Source of the DNA: Halorussus marinus
GTDB lineage: Archaea; Halobacteriota; Halobacteria; Halobacteriales; Haladaptataceae
Length of the DNA stretch: 38,796 nucleotides
Direction of reading: 5' to 3'
NCBI RefSeq assembly: GCF_004765795.1
Contig: NZ_SBIV01000014.1
Coordinates: 1 to 38,796, forward strand
The first letter of the stretch is position 1, and the number at the start of each line of letters is the position of its first letter. The notes under the pieces were generated by a model. That model was given only the letters and a program-made list of their open reading frames with translations, made no database searches and had not been told where the DNA came from. Made by a program: the position numbers and the translations under genes. This document shows, in pieces, positions 33,858-38,796 of this stretch.

Positions 33858-34202
33858 TCAGGAGTTCGCCGTCGCCCACTCAAGAAGCGGTTCTAATCTC
33901 GAACGAATCTCATCACCCTCGTCAGTTAGCGCGTATTCGACGCGTGGTGGAATTTCGTTGTACTGCGTCCGTGAGACGAGTCCTGCCTCCTCGAACTCGT
34001 CGAGTCGTTTCGAGATTGTCGAGGTACTCGCCGTCGGGAGGTGCTCCTCAATCTCCGCGAACCGCAGCGAATCGTGTGCGCCGATGATGCTGACGAGTTG
34101 CATCGCGTATTTCCGGCTCAACGTGTCGATGACACCCGTGAGCGGACAGTAGCACGTCCCCTCGACATCGCACGCGGGCGCCGATGACGTAGTGTCTGCC
34201 AT
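33858..34202 (-). CDS. HxlR-type regulator with N-terminal Cys cluster
   Basis: 114 residues. A winged helix of HxlR type: CPLTGVIDTLSRKYAMQLVS, LRFAEIEEHLPTASTSTISK and RLDEFEEAGLVSRTQYNEIP. The N-terminus has C11, C17 and C19 (CDVEGTCYC), close together and suited to binding a soft metal or to thiol switching. It is divergent from merA with 78 bases between. A dyad TACTCCA...TGGAGTA lies in that gap. I infer a Hg(II)-responsive regulator of merA. Haloarchaea lack the classic MerR in this locus. Confidence 0.75.
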   Translation of the reverse strand: MADTTSSAPACDVEGTCYCPLTGVIDTLSRKYAMQLVSIIGAHDSLRFAEIEEHLPTASTSTISKRLDEFEEAGLVSRTQYNEIPPRVEYALTDEGDEIRSRLEPLLEWATANS

Positions 34203-34221
34203 AGCTTCGTGGCCTCCAACC

Positions 34222-34248
34222 TACTCCATAGCTTCGGACTCTGGAGTA
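34222..34248. promoter_or_regulatory. Dyad between HxlR and merA genes
   Basis: TACTCCA (34222-34228) and TGGAGTA (34242-34248), perfect 7-bp arms with a 13-base spacer. It lies 33 bases before the merA ATG and 20 bases from the HxlR start, so one site could control both. ATAGCTTCG is also repeated directly (34201-34209 and from 34228). Confidence 0.6.
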
Positions 34249-34280
34249 CAAGAACTTCCCGTCGTAAAGTATAGGCACAG

Positions 34281-35735
34281 ATGACTCAGACAGCCGACTA
34301 CGATCTCGTGATTCTCGGTGGCGGCGCCGCAGCCTTCGCCGCAATCACCGAAGCGAGTCGACGCGATCTCTCGACAGCGATGGTGAATACCGGCTTGCCC
34401 ATCGGCGGGACGTGCGTGAACGTCGGCTGTGTTCCGAGTAAGCATCTCCTTGCCGTCGCCGAGAGCGGAGCTGCAGCGTCGGAGAACCCCTTCGACGCCG
34501 TTCGATACCCCGAGGAGCCGACCGTCGATTGGGCCGCCGCCCTCAACGACACCGACGAACTCGTCGAGCGGTTCCGGCAGGAGAACTACGTCGACGTCGC
34601 CGAGCACTTCGAGATCGACATCTACGAGGGGTACGGCCAGCTGGTCGACGATACTACCATCGAGGTCGTCGACGGCGCCGACGAGGGCGCACACATTACT
34701 GGGAAGAAGGCCCTCGTCGCGACCGGCAGTTCACCGTGGGCGCCGCCCATCGACGGCCTCTACGACGTCGACTACTACACGAGTGAGACCATCCTCGAGG
34801 AGCGCGACCTTCCCGAGAGTATCCTAATGCTCGGTGGGGGATACATCGCGCTGGAGTGGGGACAGATCCTGCACCGTGTCGGCATCGACGTGACGGTTCT
34901 CCAGCGCTCCGACCGCGTCCTCTCGGACATGGAAGGCCAACTTGGTCGCGAGATGCAGCGTGCATTCGAGGAGGAGGGCATCGAGGTGATCACCGGCAAC
35001 GACTTCCAGCGCGTCCGCACGCTAGCAGCCGACGGCGGCGCCGAAGCGATTCAGTCAGGCGTCGCCGTCGAAACGACCATCGACGGAGACGAGCGAACGG
35101 TCACCGGCGACGCGCTGTTCGTCGCGACCGGCGTCCAGCCGAATAGCGAGGGCATCGGCCTCGAAACGGTTGGGATCGAAACGAACCCCGACGGGACGAT
35201 TCGTGTCGACGAGTACTTCCAGACGACGAATCCCGACATCTACGCGGCGGGCGACGTGATCGGCGAGCCCGAACTGGAGACCGTCGCCGCCAAGGAGGGC
35301 AATCACGCCGTCAAGAACGCGTTCGGCAACGAGGGCGTCAGCATCGACTACGACGCGGTGCCAGCAGTCGTGTTCACCAGCCCGGAAGTCGCCGCAGTCG
35401 GGACGACAGAACGCGAGTATATGGACGAGCACGGCACCTGCTCGTGCCGAACCGTCCAGATGGCGGATGTCCCGCGAGCGAAGGCCGTCGAGAACACGGA
35501 TGGCCTCGTCCAAGTCGTCAAACACCACGAGACTGACGAGATCGTCGGCGTCCACATGGTCGGCCCCCGTGCCGCCGACATAATTATGGAAGCCACGCTT
35601 GCGGTGACGTTCGGCCTCACGGTCGACGACATCATCGACACCGTCCACCCGTTCCCGACGTTCTCCGAGGCGTTCAAACAGGCCTGTCAGGCGTTCCGAC
35701 GGGACATATCGACGATGAGCTGCTGTATCGAGTGA
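34281..35735 (+). CDS. merA: Mercuric reductase
   Basis: 484 residues. FAD site GGGAAAF, redox-active pair C45/C50 in GGTCVNVGCVPSK, NAD(P)H site MLGGGYIALEWGQI, FAD-binding AAGDVIG. The C-terminus ends MSCCIE with the vicinal Cys pair (C481, C482) that hands Hg(II) to the active site in MerA. It has no N-terminal HMA domain. It reduces Hg(II) to Hg(0) with NADPH in the cytosol. Length and motifs separate it from dihydrolipoyl dehydrogenase. It diverges from the HxlR regulator and converges with nikR over a 3-base gap (GAGTGA-ATC-TCACTC dyad spans both stops). Confidence 0.92.
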   Translation: MTQTADYDLVILGGGAAAFAAITEASRRDLSTAMVNTGLPIGGTCVNVGCVPSKHLLAVAESGAAASENPFDAVRYPEEPTVDWAAALNDTDELVERFRQENYVDVAEHFEIDIYEGYGQLVDDTTIEVVDGADEGAHITGKKALVATGSSPWAPPIDGLYDVDYYTSETILEERDLPESILMLGGGYIALEWGQILHRVGIDVTVLQRSDRVLSDMEGQLGREMQRAFEEEGIEVITGNDFQRVRTLAADGGAEAIQSGVAVETTIDGDERTVTGDALFVATGVQPNSEGIGLETVGIETNPDGTIRVDEYFQTTNPDIYAAGDVIGEPELETVAAKEGNHAVKNAFGNEGVSIDYDAVPAVVFTSPEVAAVGTTEREYMDEHGTCSCRTVQMADVPRAKAVENTDGLVQVVKHHETDEIVGVHMVGPRAADIIMEATLAVTFGLTVDDIIDTVHPFPTFSEAFKQACQAFRRDISTMSCCIE

Positions 35736-35744
35736 ATCTCACTC
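35730..35744. terminator. Dyad spanning convergent stop codons of merA and nikR
   Basis: GAGTGA-ATC-TCACTC covers the merA stop (35733-35735) and the nikR stop (35739-35741 on the minus strand). It could act as a short two-way terminator hairpin; no T-run follows, so this is tentative. Confidence 0.3.
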
Positions 35745-36146
35745 CGGGTCGGCCGGCGCAGTACTGCGGAGGAGCATCGTCTTCACACGACCAACCCCAT
35801 CGAAATCACGGAGCCGATACACGAGTTCCCGCACCCGCGCCGCATCGCCATGACAGAAGACGGTCTCTAAACACCACTCGCCCTGGTGGGTATGGCTCAT
35901 CGTTTCGATGACGTCCTGAAACTGGTGCTGGGCCGAATGGAGATCGTGAATCACCTCGTGGTGCTGGTAATCGAATGCCAGTACAGCGACGACCTCGCCT
36001 GAAACCTCCTCGAGTTGTGAATGTCCCTCGATGTATTCCTGCATCGCTTCACGAATCGCCCGCGAGCGGGAGTCCAACCCCTCAGCCTGCCATGTCTCGT
36101 CGAACTCCTCGAGAATGTCCTCAGACACGTTCAAGCTCGTGCGCAT
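35739..36146 (-). CDS. nikR: Nickel-responsive regulator NikR
   Basis: 135 residues from the ATG at 36146 (MRTSLNVSEDILEEF). An N-terminal ribbon-helix-helix (MRTSLNVSEDILEEFDETWQ, SRAIREAMQEYI) is followed by the ACT-like metal-binding domain. The nickel ligands H74, H85, H87 and C92 (SAQH, SHTHQGEWC) are spaced as in NikR. It binds DNA when loaded with Ni(II). It is divergent from the NicO/RcnA-like gene (103-base gap), so it probably represses the transporter or releases it at high nickel. A frame extension to 36215 adds a basic N-terminus and is rejected. Confidence 0.88.
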   Translation of the reverse strand: MRTSLNVSEDILEEFDETWQAEGLDSRSRAIREAMQEYIEGHSQLEEVSGEVVAVLAFDYQHHEVIHDLHSAQHQFQDVIETMSHTHQGEWCLETVFCHGDAARVRELVYRLRDFDGVGRVKTMLLRSTAPADPE

Positions 36147-36249
36147 ACTCCCCAATTGATCCCCTACTGTCTTGACCCCTCGATTATTACGGAATTCACG
36201 TTTCAGTCTTAACAACCGCTATACAGCGCAGGGATAGAGGAATATATGA

Positions 36250-37071
36250 ATGCTCCACGGCGAGGCGTTTCCACTGTTGGTCGGCGCGATTGCGCTCGGA
36301 TTCGTGCACGGCATCGAGCCCGGACACGGATGGCCGGTCGCCGCGAGTTATGCACTCGATCAATCCAATAAGTGGCTCTACGGACTCGCCGCCAGCTCGC
36401 TGATCGGCATCGGCCACCTCATTAGCAGTCTGGCGATGGTCGGCGTGTTCTTCTACGCGAAATCCTACTTTCAGCTGACCCAAGTGAACGAGCCGATCTC
36501 GATTCTTGGCGGCGTTTCCATCGGCGGTCCAGTCAGCATCGTCGCAGGCGTCTTACTCATCGGACTCGGGATTCGAGAGTACACGCACGGCCATTCTCAC
36601 CAGCACGAGGACAGCCACGGACACGACCACGATGAGCATACGGAGGAGCAGTCGAGCCACCACAGTCACGGCACGCCACCCACGCACGAACACTCCCCGG
36701 ATGGGCTCCTTACACGGGTGAAAATTCGGCTTGGAAAAATCGGAGGGCACTCCCACGAGCACGGGACCGATCCGGCTCCTGACGCCGACCGCGGACTCCT
36801 CGGAATCGCCTGGTTCGCATTCGTCCTCGGGTTCGCTCACGAAGAAGAATTCGAGATTATCGGCCTCTGTGCCGGTTCGACGTACTGTCTGGAGCTGATG
36901 ACTGCGTATGCGCTGACGGTCATCGTCGGCATTGTCGGGTTAACGATGCTCCTCATCGCCGGCTATCAGGAGTACGAAGAAACAGTCGAGCGGTATACAC
37001 CGTACCTGCCGCTGTTCTCAGCGACCGTCCTCATCGTCATGGGACTCGGCTTCATCGCCGGCGTCTTCTGA
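36250..37071 (+). CDS. NicO/RcnA-like nickel-cobalt exporter
   Basis: 273 residues, six or so membrane helices (PLLVGAIALGFVHGIEPGHG; WLYGLAASSLIGIGHLISSL; GVLLIGLGIREYTHGH; IAWFAFVLGFAHEEEFEI; YALTVIVGIVGLTMLLIAG; FSATVLIVMGLGFIAGVF). The motif HGIEPGHG in helix 1 and FAHEEE resemble the metal sites of the NicO family. The large cytosolic loop (about 113-160) is rich in His and Asp (HGHSHQHEDSHGHDHDEH), as in RcnA. It probably exports Ni(II) or Co(II). Divergent partner of nikR. The last 54 bases overlap the ArsR gene on the other strand. Confidence 0.82.
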   Translation: MLHGEAFPLLVGAIALGFVHGIEPGHGWPVAASYALDQSNKWLYGLAASSLIGIGHLISSLAMVGVFFYAKSYFQLTQVNEPISILGGVSIGGPVSIVAGVLLIGLGIREYTHGHSHQHEDSHGHDHDEHTEEQSSHHSHGTPPTHEHSPDGLLTRVKIRLGKIGGHSHEHGTDPAPDADRGLLGIAWFAFVLGFAHEEEFEIIGLCAGSTYCLELMTAYALTVIVGIVGLTMLLIAGYQEYEETVERYTPYLPLFSATVLIVMGLGFIAGVF

Positions 37072-37617
37072 ATCACGCCGAACACTCTCCAGCGTCCCAT
37101 TCTCAGTAAGGTCAATAAGCGCGCGATTTAGCAGTTCACGGAGGACGAACTCCTCGTAATGCTGTGTTGCACAGTACTCGCACGGCTTCATTTCTCGTGC
37201 CACCGCTTCGATGTCGTCGCCGTGCTCCCCATAGAGCGTCTCAACGAGCCCTGCTAATTCGGCTGCCGCGGTTTCCTGCGCCCCAGCGAGCGTCTGCTCA
37301 GCGTCCTCTGGTAGGTCATACGAAAAAATCCGCGTGTTCGACTTGTAGTACTTCCGCGTCCCCCCACCAGCTTCTTCGAGCCGGGCAATCTCGACCATCC
37401 CCGCATCCTTCAGGACGTTCACGTGGTGGCGCACCGTCGTCTCCGCCTTTTCTTCGCCACGACGATGCAGTTCGTCGTGGATCTCCTCGATCGTCATTTC
37501 CTCGGTTGCGAGCATGTCGAGGATCTTCACCCGGACATCGTTCTCCAGTGCCTTCGCTTTCTCCGGGTCCGTCGTCACGACTTCGCGGATCGGCACGTCA
37601 GATTCGAGGAGCGCCAT
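37018..37617 (-). CDS. ArsR-type metal-responsive regulator
   Basis: 199 residues from the ATG at 37617 (MALLESDVPIREV). Winged helix: EKAKALENDVRVKILDMLAT, MTIEEIHDELHRRGEEKAET and TVRHHVNVLKDAGMVEIARL. A helical middle follows, then a CEYCATQHYEEF motif and a charged tail. The CxxC plus His could bind metal. It diverges from the second P-type ATPase, with a 131-base gap holding a TGGTTAT dyad. Tail to tail it overlaps the NicO/RcnA-like gene by 54 bases. A longer frame to 37662 begins with a hydrophobic stretch and is not preferred. Confidence 0.75.
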   Translation of the reverse strand: MALLESDVPIREVVTTDPEKAKALENDVRVKILDMLATEEMTIEEIHDELHRRGEEKAETTVRHHVNVLKDAGMVEIARLEEAGGGTRKYYKSNTRIFSYDLPEDAEQTLAGAQETAAAELAGLVETLYGEHGDDIEAVAREMKPCEYCATQHYEEFVLRELLNRALIDLTENGTLESVRRDSEDAGDEAESHDDEDGR

Positions 37618-37713
37618 TCTTGTGACGACATAGACGGACAACGACAGTAAGAGTAACGCCATTCCAACGACAGTGGTAGTATGATATCGAGACCGCTATA
37701 ACTCTCGTCATAA

Positions 37714-37748: not shown

Positions 37749-38669
37749 ATGGGAACGACACACGACCAATTCAACGTCGGGGGGATGTCCTGCTCGTTCT
37801 GTGCCGAGAGCATCAAGAAGGCCTACAGTCGAACCGACGGCGTTGAGGACGTCGACGTGAGTCTCGCCCACGAGGAAGTTCTCGTCGAATACGACGACGA
37901 CCTGCTGAGCGAGGTCGAGGTAAAGGACACGCTCCGAGACCTCGGGTACACCATCCGCGACCCTGACAAAGCGAAGCGGTACGAGCAACAGCAGGCCGAA
38001 CTCTCCGACGGCAAGCGTCGCCTCCTCATCACCGGTGGCGCATCCATCGTTATCGCTGCCCTGATGGGATGGATGATTTTCGTGATGGGGCGCTTCGAGT
38101 CAACATCTCTCGGGATGGATCTGGTGACTCTGGGGCTGGCACTCGGGACGATGTTCGGGCCCGGCCGCTATATCAAAGAGAAAGCCTTCCAGAGCGTGCG
38201 CCGGGGTATCTTCAACCAGCACGTCCTCCTGGAAGCGGGCGCGTTCGCCGGACTCGTGGGTGGACTGCTTGGCCTGTTCGTCTTCCCGAGCTTCCCGACC
38301 GTTCACTTCTTCGCCGTCTCCGTGTTCATCACCACCTATCACATCCTTTCGGAGTACACCAGCCTCATCGTCCGCACGCGAGCTTCCCGAGCCGTCCAAG
38401 GCCTTCTCGACCTCCAGCCCGACACGGCACGCCGCGTCAGTGATGACGGTGATGTCGAGGAGGTCCCTGTCGACGACCTCGACGTTGGCAATCGCGTCCG
38501 CGTCAAGCCCGGCGAAAACATCCCCGTCGACGGCACGGTCGTCGAGGGCGAATCGATGGTCGACGAGTCGGTCGCTACCGGCGAGTCCATTCCCGAAGAG
38601 AAGGCCGCCGGCGACGCGGTGATCGGTGGCAGCGTCAACGAGACCGGGACGCTGCTCATCGAAGTAACT
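37749..38669 (+). pseudogene. P1B-type metal ATPase, cut off by the IS
   Basis: 307 codons of a metal-transporting P-type ATPase remain. The HMA domain has GGMSCSFC (C15, C18), then predicted membrane helices (LITGGASIVIAALMGWMIFV, LVTLGLALGTMFGPG, HVLLEAGAFAGLVGGLLGLF) and the actuator domain with ATGESIPEE. The IS starts at 38670, and the frame continues 13 codons into it before a TGA at 38709-38711. The CPx ion site, phosphorylation and nucleotide-binding domains are missing, so this copy cannot pump. Unless the rest lies beyond the IS as a target duplication it is a broken gene. ArsR regulator on the opposite strand. Confidence 0.9.
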
Positions 38670-38796
38670 GGCTGTGTTGAATCGCCATACGGCAGAGAGG
38701 TAGGCCGCTAAATCAAAGGAGTTGAAGCGGGAGAGTTCCGTTGACCATGACGCAAATCTCCCGCTTCATCGGGGAGGTTGTACCGGTTGCTCAAAG
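38670..38796 (+). mobile_element. Right edge: 5' end of an IS, reading outward
   Basis: The mirror of the left edge. The IS tip GGCTGTGTTGAATCGCC starts at 38670, inside the P-type ATPase. A start codon at 38748 opens the transposase frame (MTQISRFIGEVVPVAQ), which is cut by the window edge. Identity with the left copy over 126 bases shows two copies of the same element with 5' ends facing inward. Recombination between them could invert the whole interval. Confidence 0.85.

Follow-up and report, generated by a model that had tools for sequence, protein, structure and literature searches.

A probable HxlR-type regulator of merA in haloarchaea

The merA locus

The window (the whole stretch of DNA analysed, 38,796 nucleotides of a contig from Halorussus marinus) carries a mercury(II) reductase gene and, divergent from it, a gene for a small winged-helix protein. 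The features of this region are as follows.

33858–34202, minus strand: hxlR-type regulator gene, 114 aa, winged helix
34203–34280, no strand: divergent promoter region, 78 bp, of which 34205–34258 is strongly conserved in 53 distinct gaps
34212–34220, plus strand: second conserved block GCCTCCAAC, between the operator and the hxlR start, from the 53-gap alignment
34222–34241, plus strand: proposed operator TACTCCATAGCTTCGGACTC, an imperfect 18-bp dyad centred on 34231.5; the same element precedes many paralogues
34245–34251, plus strand: likely merA TATA box, AGTACAA here and mostly AGTATAA in relatives, roughly 30 bp ahead of the merA start codon
34281–35735, plus strand: merA, mercury(II) reductase, 484 aa, with a C-terminal Cys pair

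MerA passes the NCBIfam profile TIGR02053 (530.5 bits, cut-off 454.45), keeps both the active-site Cys pair (GTCVNVGC) and the C-terminal SCCIE, and has mercuric reductases as its best solved relatives. The protein encoded on the opposite strand passes the Pfam HxlR profile PF01638 (64.3 bits, cut-off 20.8). Its Pfam and NCBIfam matches at E ≤ 0.001 include no MerR family, and its score of 19.1 bits against the ArsR/SmtB metalloregulator profile NF033788 is below the cut-off of 55; we therefore rejected membership of either the MerR or the ArsR family. It is also below the cut-offs for the redox regulators RrpA/RrpB (48.6 against 185 bits for NF047367 and 46.9 against 175 for NF047364). The translation contains Cys11, Cys17 and Cys19 as its only cysteines. 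The initial annotation, which had placed merA opposite an HxlR protein with these three cysteines and not opposite a MerR, was thus correct in both respects.

We note that the region beside merA (35739–37662) encodes a NikR-like protein, a His-rich membrane protein without a Pfam match, and an ArsR-type helix-turn-helix protein with a CEYC motif, and that the order of these genes is the same in locus L097. They are followed at 37749–38711 by the reading frame of a heavy-metal P-type ATPase, which is cut after 38670: similarity to the intact L097 copy (758 aa) stops there, near the end of the contig.

Occurrence of the merA–hxlR pair

Both proteins were used as queries against 391 genomes of the haloarchaeal class. 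A cut-off of E ≤ 1e-110 gave 59 MerA places, spread over 54 genomes, and one of E ≤ 1e-20 gave 124 places with relatives of the HxlR protein, spread over 111 genomes. We defined merA-type HxlRs as those at least 76% identical to the window protein, a limit set after seeing that the matches break from 76% to 64%. On this definition, a divergent and adjoining HxlR is present at 54 of the 59 merA places, and merA is the neighbour of 54 of the 55 merA-type HxlRs. The pairs span 50 genomes, 25 genera and 5 families, and the linkage persists as MerA falls to 64% identity and HxlR to 76%. The distance between the matched parts is 74–93 bp in 49 of the 54 pairs; the other five show gaps of 492–606 bp because the MerA match starts late. 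A test of joint presence and absence gives p = 3e-57, a value computed over pairs that are not independent, some of them being recent identical copies. The supposition that this HxlR is tied to merA is therefore well supported by comparison of genomes, and it is very likely, on the same comparison, that the merA-adjacent HxlR controls merA.

The five merA places that lack a merA-type HxlR are in G027, G393, G096 and G180, with a fragment in G343. No regulator was seen adjoining merA in G027 and G393 (2 of the 59 places). At the merA genes of G017, G096, G180 and G003, a divergent ArsR/SmtB-type gene with a CLxxC motif fills the slot of HxlR. These ArsR-type genes are at loci L184, L185, L187 and L188. 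Both of those that were tested pass NF033788; one also passes Pfam HTH_5, and the other falls just short. The conserved element at 34222–34241, described below, is absent at the ArsR-type merA loci, where the best matrix scores are –11.9 to –19.5. In a quick FastTree analysis, whose outgroup is distant and whose deep nodes are weak, the G017 MerA (88% identical) nests among HxlR-linked MerAs, which is consistent with a replacement of HxlR by the ArsR-type gene in G017. The family profiles, together with the ArsR-type gene in the same slot elsewhere, also agree with the earlier view that an HxlR-based Hg(II) sensor would be a different solution from both MerR and the ArsR-type regulators.

merA-type HxlRs also occur away from merA. 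In G318 (L180:4884–7196) the gene is divergent from genes for a CopZ-like zinc/iron-sulfur protein and a MerA-like oxidoreductase, both of which occur near merA in other loci; this genome has no merA match at the MerA search cut-off. Locus L127, which has an HxlR of 90% identity and no merA, is on a contig labelled Mollicutes and is probably a haloarchaeal contig in the wrong bin.

Structure and cysteines of the HxlR protein

The solved folds closest to the HxlR protein include the thiol sensors YodB, QsrR, HypR and B. subtilis HxlR. The AlphaFold model has a mean pLDDT of 84, with low confidence at the first residues; it places C11–C19 before helix 1 (residues 22–28), and residue 38 within helix 2 (33–41).

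The three cysteines to which the initial annotation had drawn attention are, together with Ser38, invariant in all 53 distinct merA-type HxlRs, of which 52 contain exactly three Cys. This census left out the truncated rows L127 and L139, and G357:C12:128520 has no separate row. A Cys at the position of C19 occurs in almost every HxlR-family protein, those of bacteria included, and C17 is also present in non-merA paralogues; the merA type is marked only by C11 together with Ser38. C19 corresponds by spacing to the reactive Cys of B. subtilis HxlR, since C11 and K23 of that protein (PMC7835342) are as far apart as C19 and K31 of the window protein.

Sensing of Hg(II) by these cysteines is likely, on the grounds of gene linkage and chemistry. 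The near-universal presence of C19 would also suit a general sensor of thiol or electrophile stress like YodB or HypR, for which Hg(II) is one of many thiol poisons and which responds through oxidation or alkylation of C19; the nearest structures are indeed redox or quinone sensors, and a peroxiredoxin-type gene, identified with Pfam profiles, adjoins hxlR in the window. We regard this alternative as unlikely, however, given that the partner gene is merA in 54 of 55 cases and not a quinone or oxidant gene, and that there are two further invariant cysteines, C11 and C17. Moreover, all three cysteines lie in the N-terminal cluster (52 of 53 proteins), so that there is no partner Cys elsewhere as there is in YodB, where the available text of PMC10458429 describes a C6–C101' pair. 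A disulfide among C11, C17 and C19 is possible.

The merB-linked branch and other paralogues

The HxlR relatives of lower identity (38–64% in the census) mostly retain C17 and C19. A class-wide search located MerB (alkylmercury lyase) at 66 places in 57 genomes. A merB gene lies within 3 kb of 37 of the 69 lower-identity HxlRs (29 divergent, 7 convergent and 1 on the same strand; 32 are without), and, counted from the other side, a lower-identity HxlR lies within 3 kb at 37 of the 66 merB places and is lacking at 29. The Pfam MerB cut-off is passed by all five of the paralogue neighbours tested and by the one merA neighbour tested; none of these six reaches the stricter NCBIfam MerB cut-offs. 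At loci L190–L195, L198, L199 and L201–L229, CYC-HxlRs with Cys38 adjoin merB, most often divergently and often with the same operator, and look like a merB regulator branch.

Cys38 is present in all 37 merB-linked HxlRs, and C17 and C19 in 36, the remaining row being one that starts late. (Rows L210 and L245 begin late because of the start codon chosen, which leaves C17 and C19 as gaps.) One of the 37 has Cys in column 11, and 14 have one or two Cys N-terminal to C17. The third Cys is thus placed differently in the two groups, at position 11 in the merA type and at 38 in the merB-linked type. In the B. subtilis HxlR structure described in PMC7835342, the reactive Cys is in contact with Met26' from helix 2 of the partner subunit. 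Met26' corresponds to Met34 here, which puts residue 38 a single helical turn beyond it, and C38' of the merB type could meet C17/C19.

The census group without a mer link consists of 31 of the 32 unlinked HxlRs plus that of G318; the HxlR tree, which includes 27 of the 53 merA-type rows, has poor resolution outside the merA clade. Some branches combine CxCC with CYC and adjoin genes for ABC transporters. CYC alone therefore does not signify mercury, and we rejected it as a signature. The relatives at L238 and L243 have an N-terminal CGCGC and no CYC, and are divergent from a chromate transporter gene (tested with profiles in L243); they are possibly chromate or sulfur-oxyanion regulators. As the Cys patterns and the adjoining genes differ between branches, the HxlR fold is probably used for other ligands too.

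A small protein with the pattern CTLT...ECC (for example at L265:2742–3080, L233:2866–3204, L239:2882–3223 and L194:2299–2637) accompanies 9 of the 37 merB-linked HxlR loci and 13 of the remaining 32, and with few exceptions its gene is divergent from HxlR. It has no match in Pfam (two tested) or NCBIfam (three tested). One copy carries the operator although no HxlR is close by. At L249:1376–2635 and L245:1043–2230 the same domain is fused in frame with a methyltransferase; the methyltransferase part at L249 passes the NCBIfam arsenite methyltransferase cut-off, and the L245 fusion is read from the ORF and the small-domain match alone.

These neighbourhoods bear on whether the merA regulator might sense another soft metal, such as arsenite, Cd or Cu, in addition to Hg(II) or in its place. 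The window cluster holds the NikR-like protein and the start of the P-type ATPase, one paralogue is divergent from the arsenite-methyltransferase fusion, and others are near an SBF-family transporter. The immediate divergent partner is nevertheless merA, and in the sister branch it is often merB, whose known substrates are mercury compounds; we consider a different or broader metal specificity improbable, and keep to Hg(II) as the signal.

The divergent control region

Alignment of the 53 distinct merA–hxlR gaps shows the strongest conserved block to be 34222–34241, with the consensus TACTCyATaGCTTyGGACTc. It has its own dyad, A.TCC-N8-GGA.T, centred on 34231.5, which is also where dyad symmetry over ten-base half-lengths peaks. 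This candidate operator occupies positions –20 to –39 of hxlR and lies directly upstream of the merA TATA box; a further conserved block is at 34255–34258. The AGTATAA sequence is likely to be the TATA box of a nearly leaderless merA message.

The initial annotation had described a TACTCCA/TGGAGTA dyad in a 78-base gap. The gap (34203–34280) and the two arms (34222–34228 and 34242–34248) are where it placed them, but the 7-bp dyad is perfect in only 8 of the 53 gaps, and we therefore rejected it, in that exact form, as the operator. Its outer letters TACT/AGTA are conserved and the right arm TGGAGTA as a whole poorly so; AGTA belongs to the conserved AGTATAA. Symmetry averages 0.75 over its seven pairs and 0.65 over the nine pairs that make up the 18-bp dyad, which leaves both of the overlapping dyads possible.

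When a matrix built from 34222–34241 was applied at –39 to –20 of hxlR, positive scores were obtained for 23 of the 37 merB-linked paralogues, for 8 of the remaining 32, and for none of 13,800 shuffled windows. A degenerate pattern of the same element has 61 matches in the 391 genomes, 60 of them no more than 300 bp upstream of a CYC-HxlR gene in the expected orientation (46 of merA type and 14 others); a reversed control pattern has one among the matches listed. The 61st match, with no HxlR nearby, is some 40 bp ahead of a gene whose product, a Cys-containing protein of 112 aa, has no NCBIfam match; relatives of this protein are divergent from many CYC-HxlRs. Apart from the window site, the genome has no site with fewer than three mismatches to the element. 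The conservation of the element is far beyond chance. Neither the single close site in the genome nor the 60 class-wide matches before CYC-HxlRs fit an ordinary promoter, which we rejected as an explanation.

That the pair is a plasmid-borne module which travels as one unit, hxlR controlling no gene but its own, is very improbable. The 10.8-kb block of the window does recur at 100% identity in L098 and 99.07% in L099, one such near-identical block being in another genus, and 22 plasmid records contain 80% or more of the merA–hxlR pair; plasmid NC_006394 of Haloarcula marismortui ATCC 43049 has it at 97.6% identity. Yet both the linkage and the element survive deep divergence, and conservation reaches the merA TATA box and continues across it.

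Proposed mechanism

We consider it probable that the HxlR protein is a dedicated regulator of merA and of itself, which acts as a dimer on 34222–34241 and responds to Hg(II) through C11, C17 and C19 by switching merA on. The dimer would bind the 20-bp element and so cover the hxlR core promoter and abut the merA TATA box, a position from which it could either block both promoters or aid merA when Hg(II) is present. The N-terminal thiolates would bind Hg(II), with C19 as the reactive Cys of the family and C17 and C11 as additions, and this binding would alter the shape of the N-terminal arm and how far apart the two wings lie, turning merA on. We infer DNA binding, Hg(II) binding and the direction of control, alongside the observed genes, their conserved pairing, the invariant cysteines, the conserved and specific element, and the regulator swap. 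We slightly favour derepression over conversion to an activator. The family offers precedents both ways: PMC10458429 lists YodB among repressors and HypR among activators, and in B. subtilis HxlR it is a rearrangement of the N-terminus that brings about activation, as described in PMC7835342.

A wider proposal, which we put forward tentatively and with rather more doubt than belief, is that there is a haloarchaeal family of mercury-sensing HxlRs that share one operator. The merA type would use C11, C17 and C19, and the merB type C17 and C19 with C38 on helix 2, maybe for organomercurials, the third thiolate having moved; this would be a third independent answer to Hg(II), after MerR and ArsR. 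If so, moving one thiolate would let a single fold sense both inorganic and organic mercury. A third class of merA regulator, with merB sisters and a common operator, would amount to a natural experiment in turning a thiol-stress fold into a metal sensor, and would offer a salt-tolerant mercury reporter.

Comparison with known systems

No HxlR-type mercury regulator was found in the open-access PubMed Central literature when HxlR was searched for with mercury, merA and merB. In the parts available, one survey of mer operons considered MerR, ArsR and MerD (PMC3466566), a second mentions only MerR and MerD as regulators (PMC8261052), and a haloarchaeal metal review has no mention of HxlR. In surveys that name these regulators and not HxlR, a haloarchaeal merA paired with HxlR would look unregulated. 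The fold is known and the job is known, and it is their combination that we have not found described. The pairing with merA and the merB-linked sisters point to an undescribed class of mercury sensor.

MerR has a three-Cys site for Hg(II). The MerR of bacterial mer operons resembles the window HxlR in being divergent from a mer gene and probably in offering three thiolates to Hg(II), and differs in both fold and family. The ArsR-type mer regulators (that of S. solfataricus, as given in the available part of PMC3466566, and those of haloarchaeal merA) are likewise small winged-helix proteins in the same slot. The haloarchaeal ones belong to their own ArsR/SmtB family, with a CLxxC motif, whereas the window protein falls short of that family's profile, as noted above.

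The HxlR/DUF24 thiol sensors (YodB, HypR, HxlR and QsrR) share the fold, the family and a Cys before or on helix 1, here C19; the window protein differs from them in the extra invariant C11 and C17 and in its linkage to merA. The formaldehyde sensor B. subtilis HxlR has C11 followed two residues later by K13 (PMC7835342, in the part accessible), whereas the window protein has C19-P20-L21, with no Lys at that spacing. The merB-linked CYC-HxlRs are about 48–67% identical to the window protein, share C17 and C19 and, in many cases, have the 20-bp element in the same place, but adjoin merB rather than merA and have Cys38 in place of Cys11.
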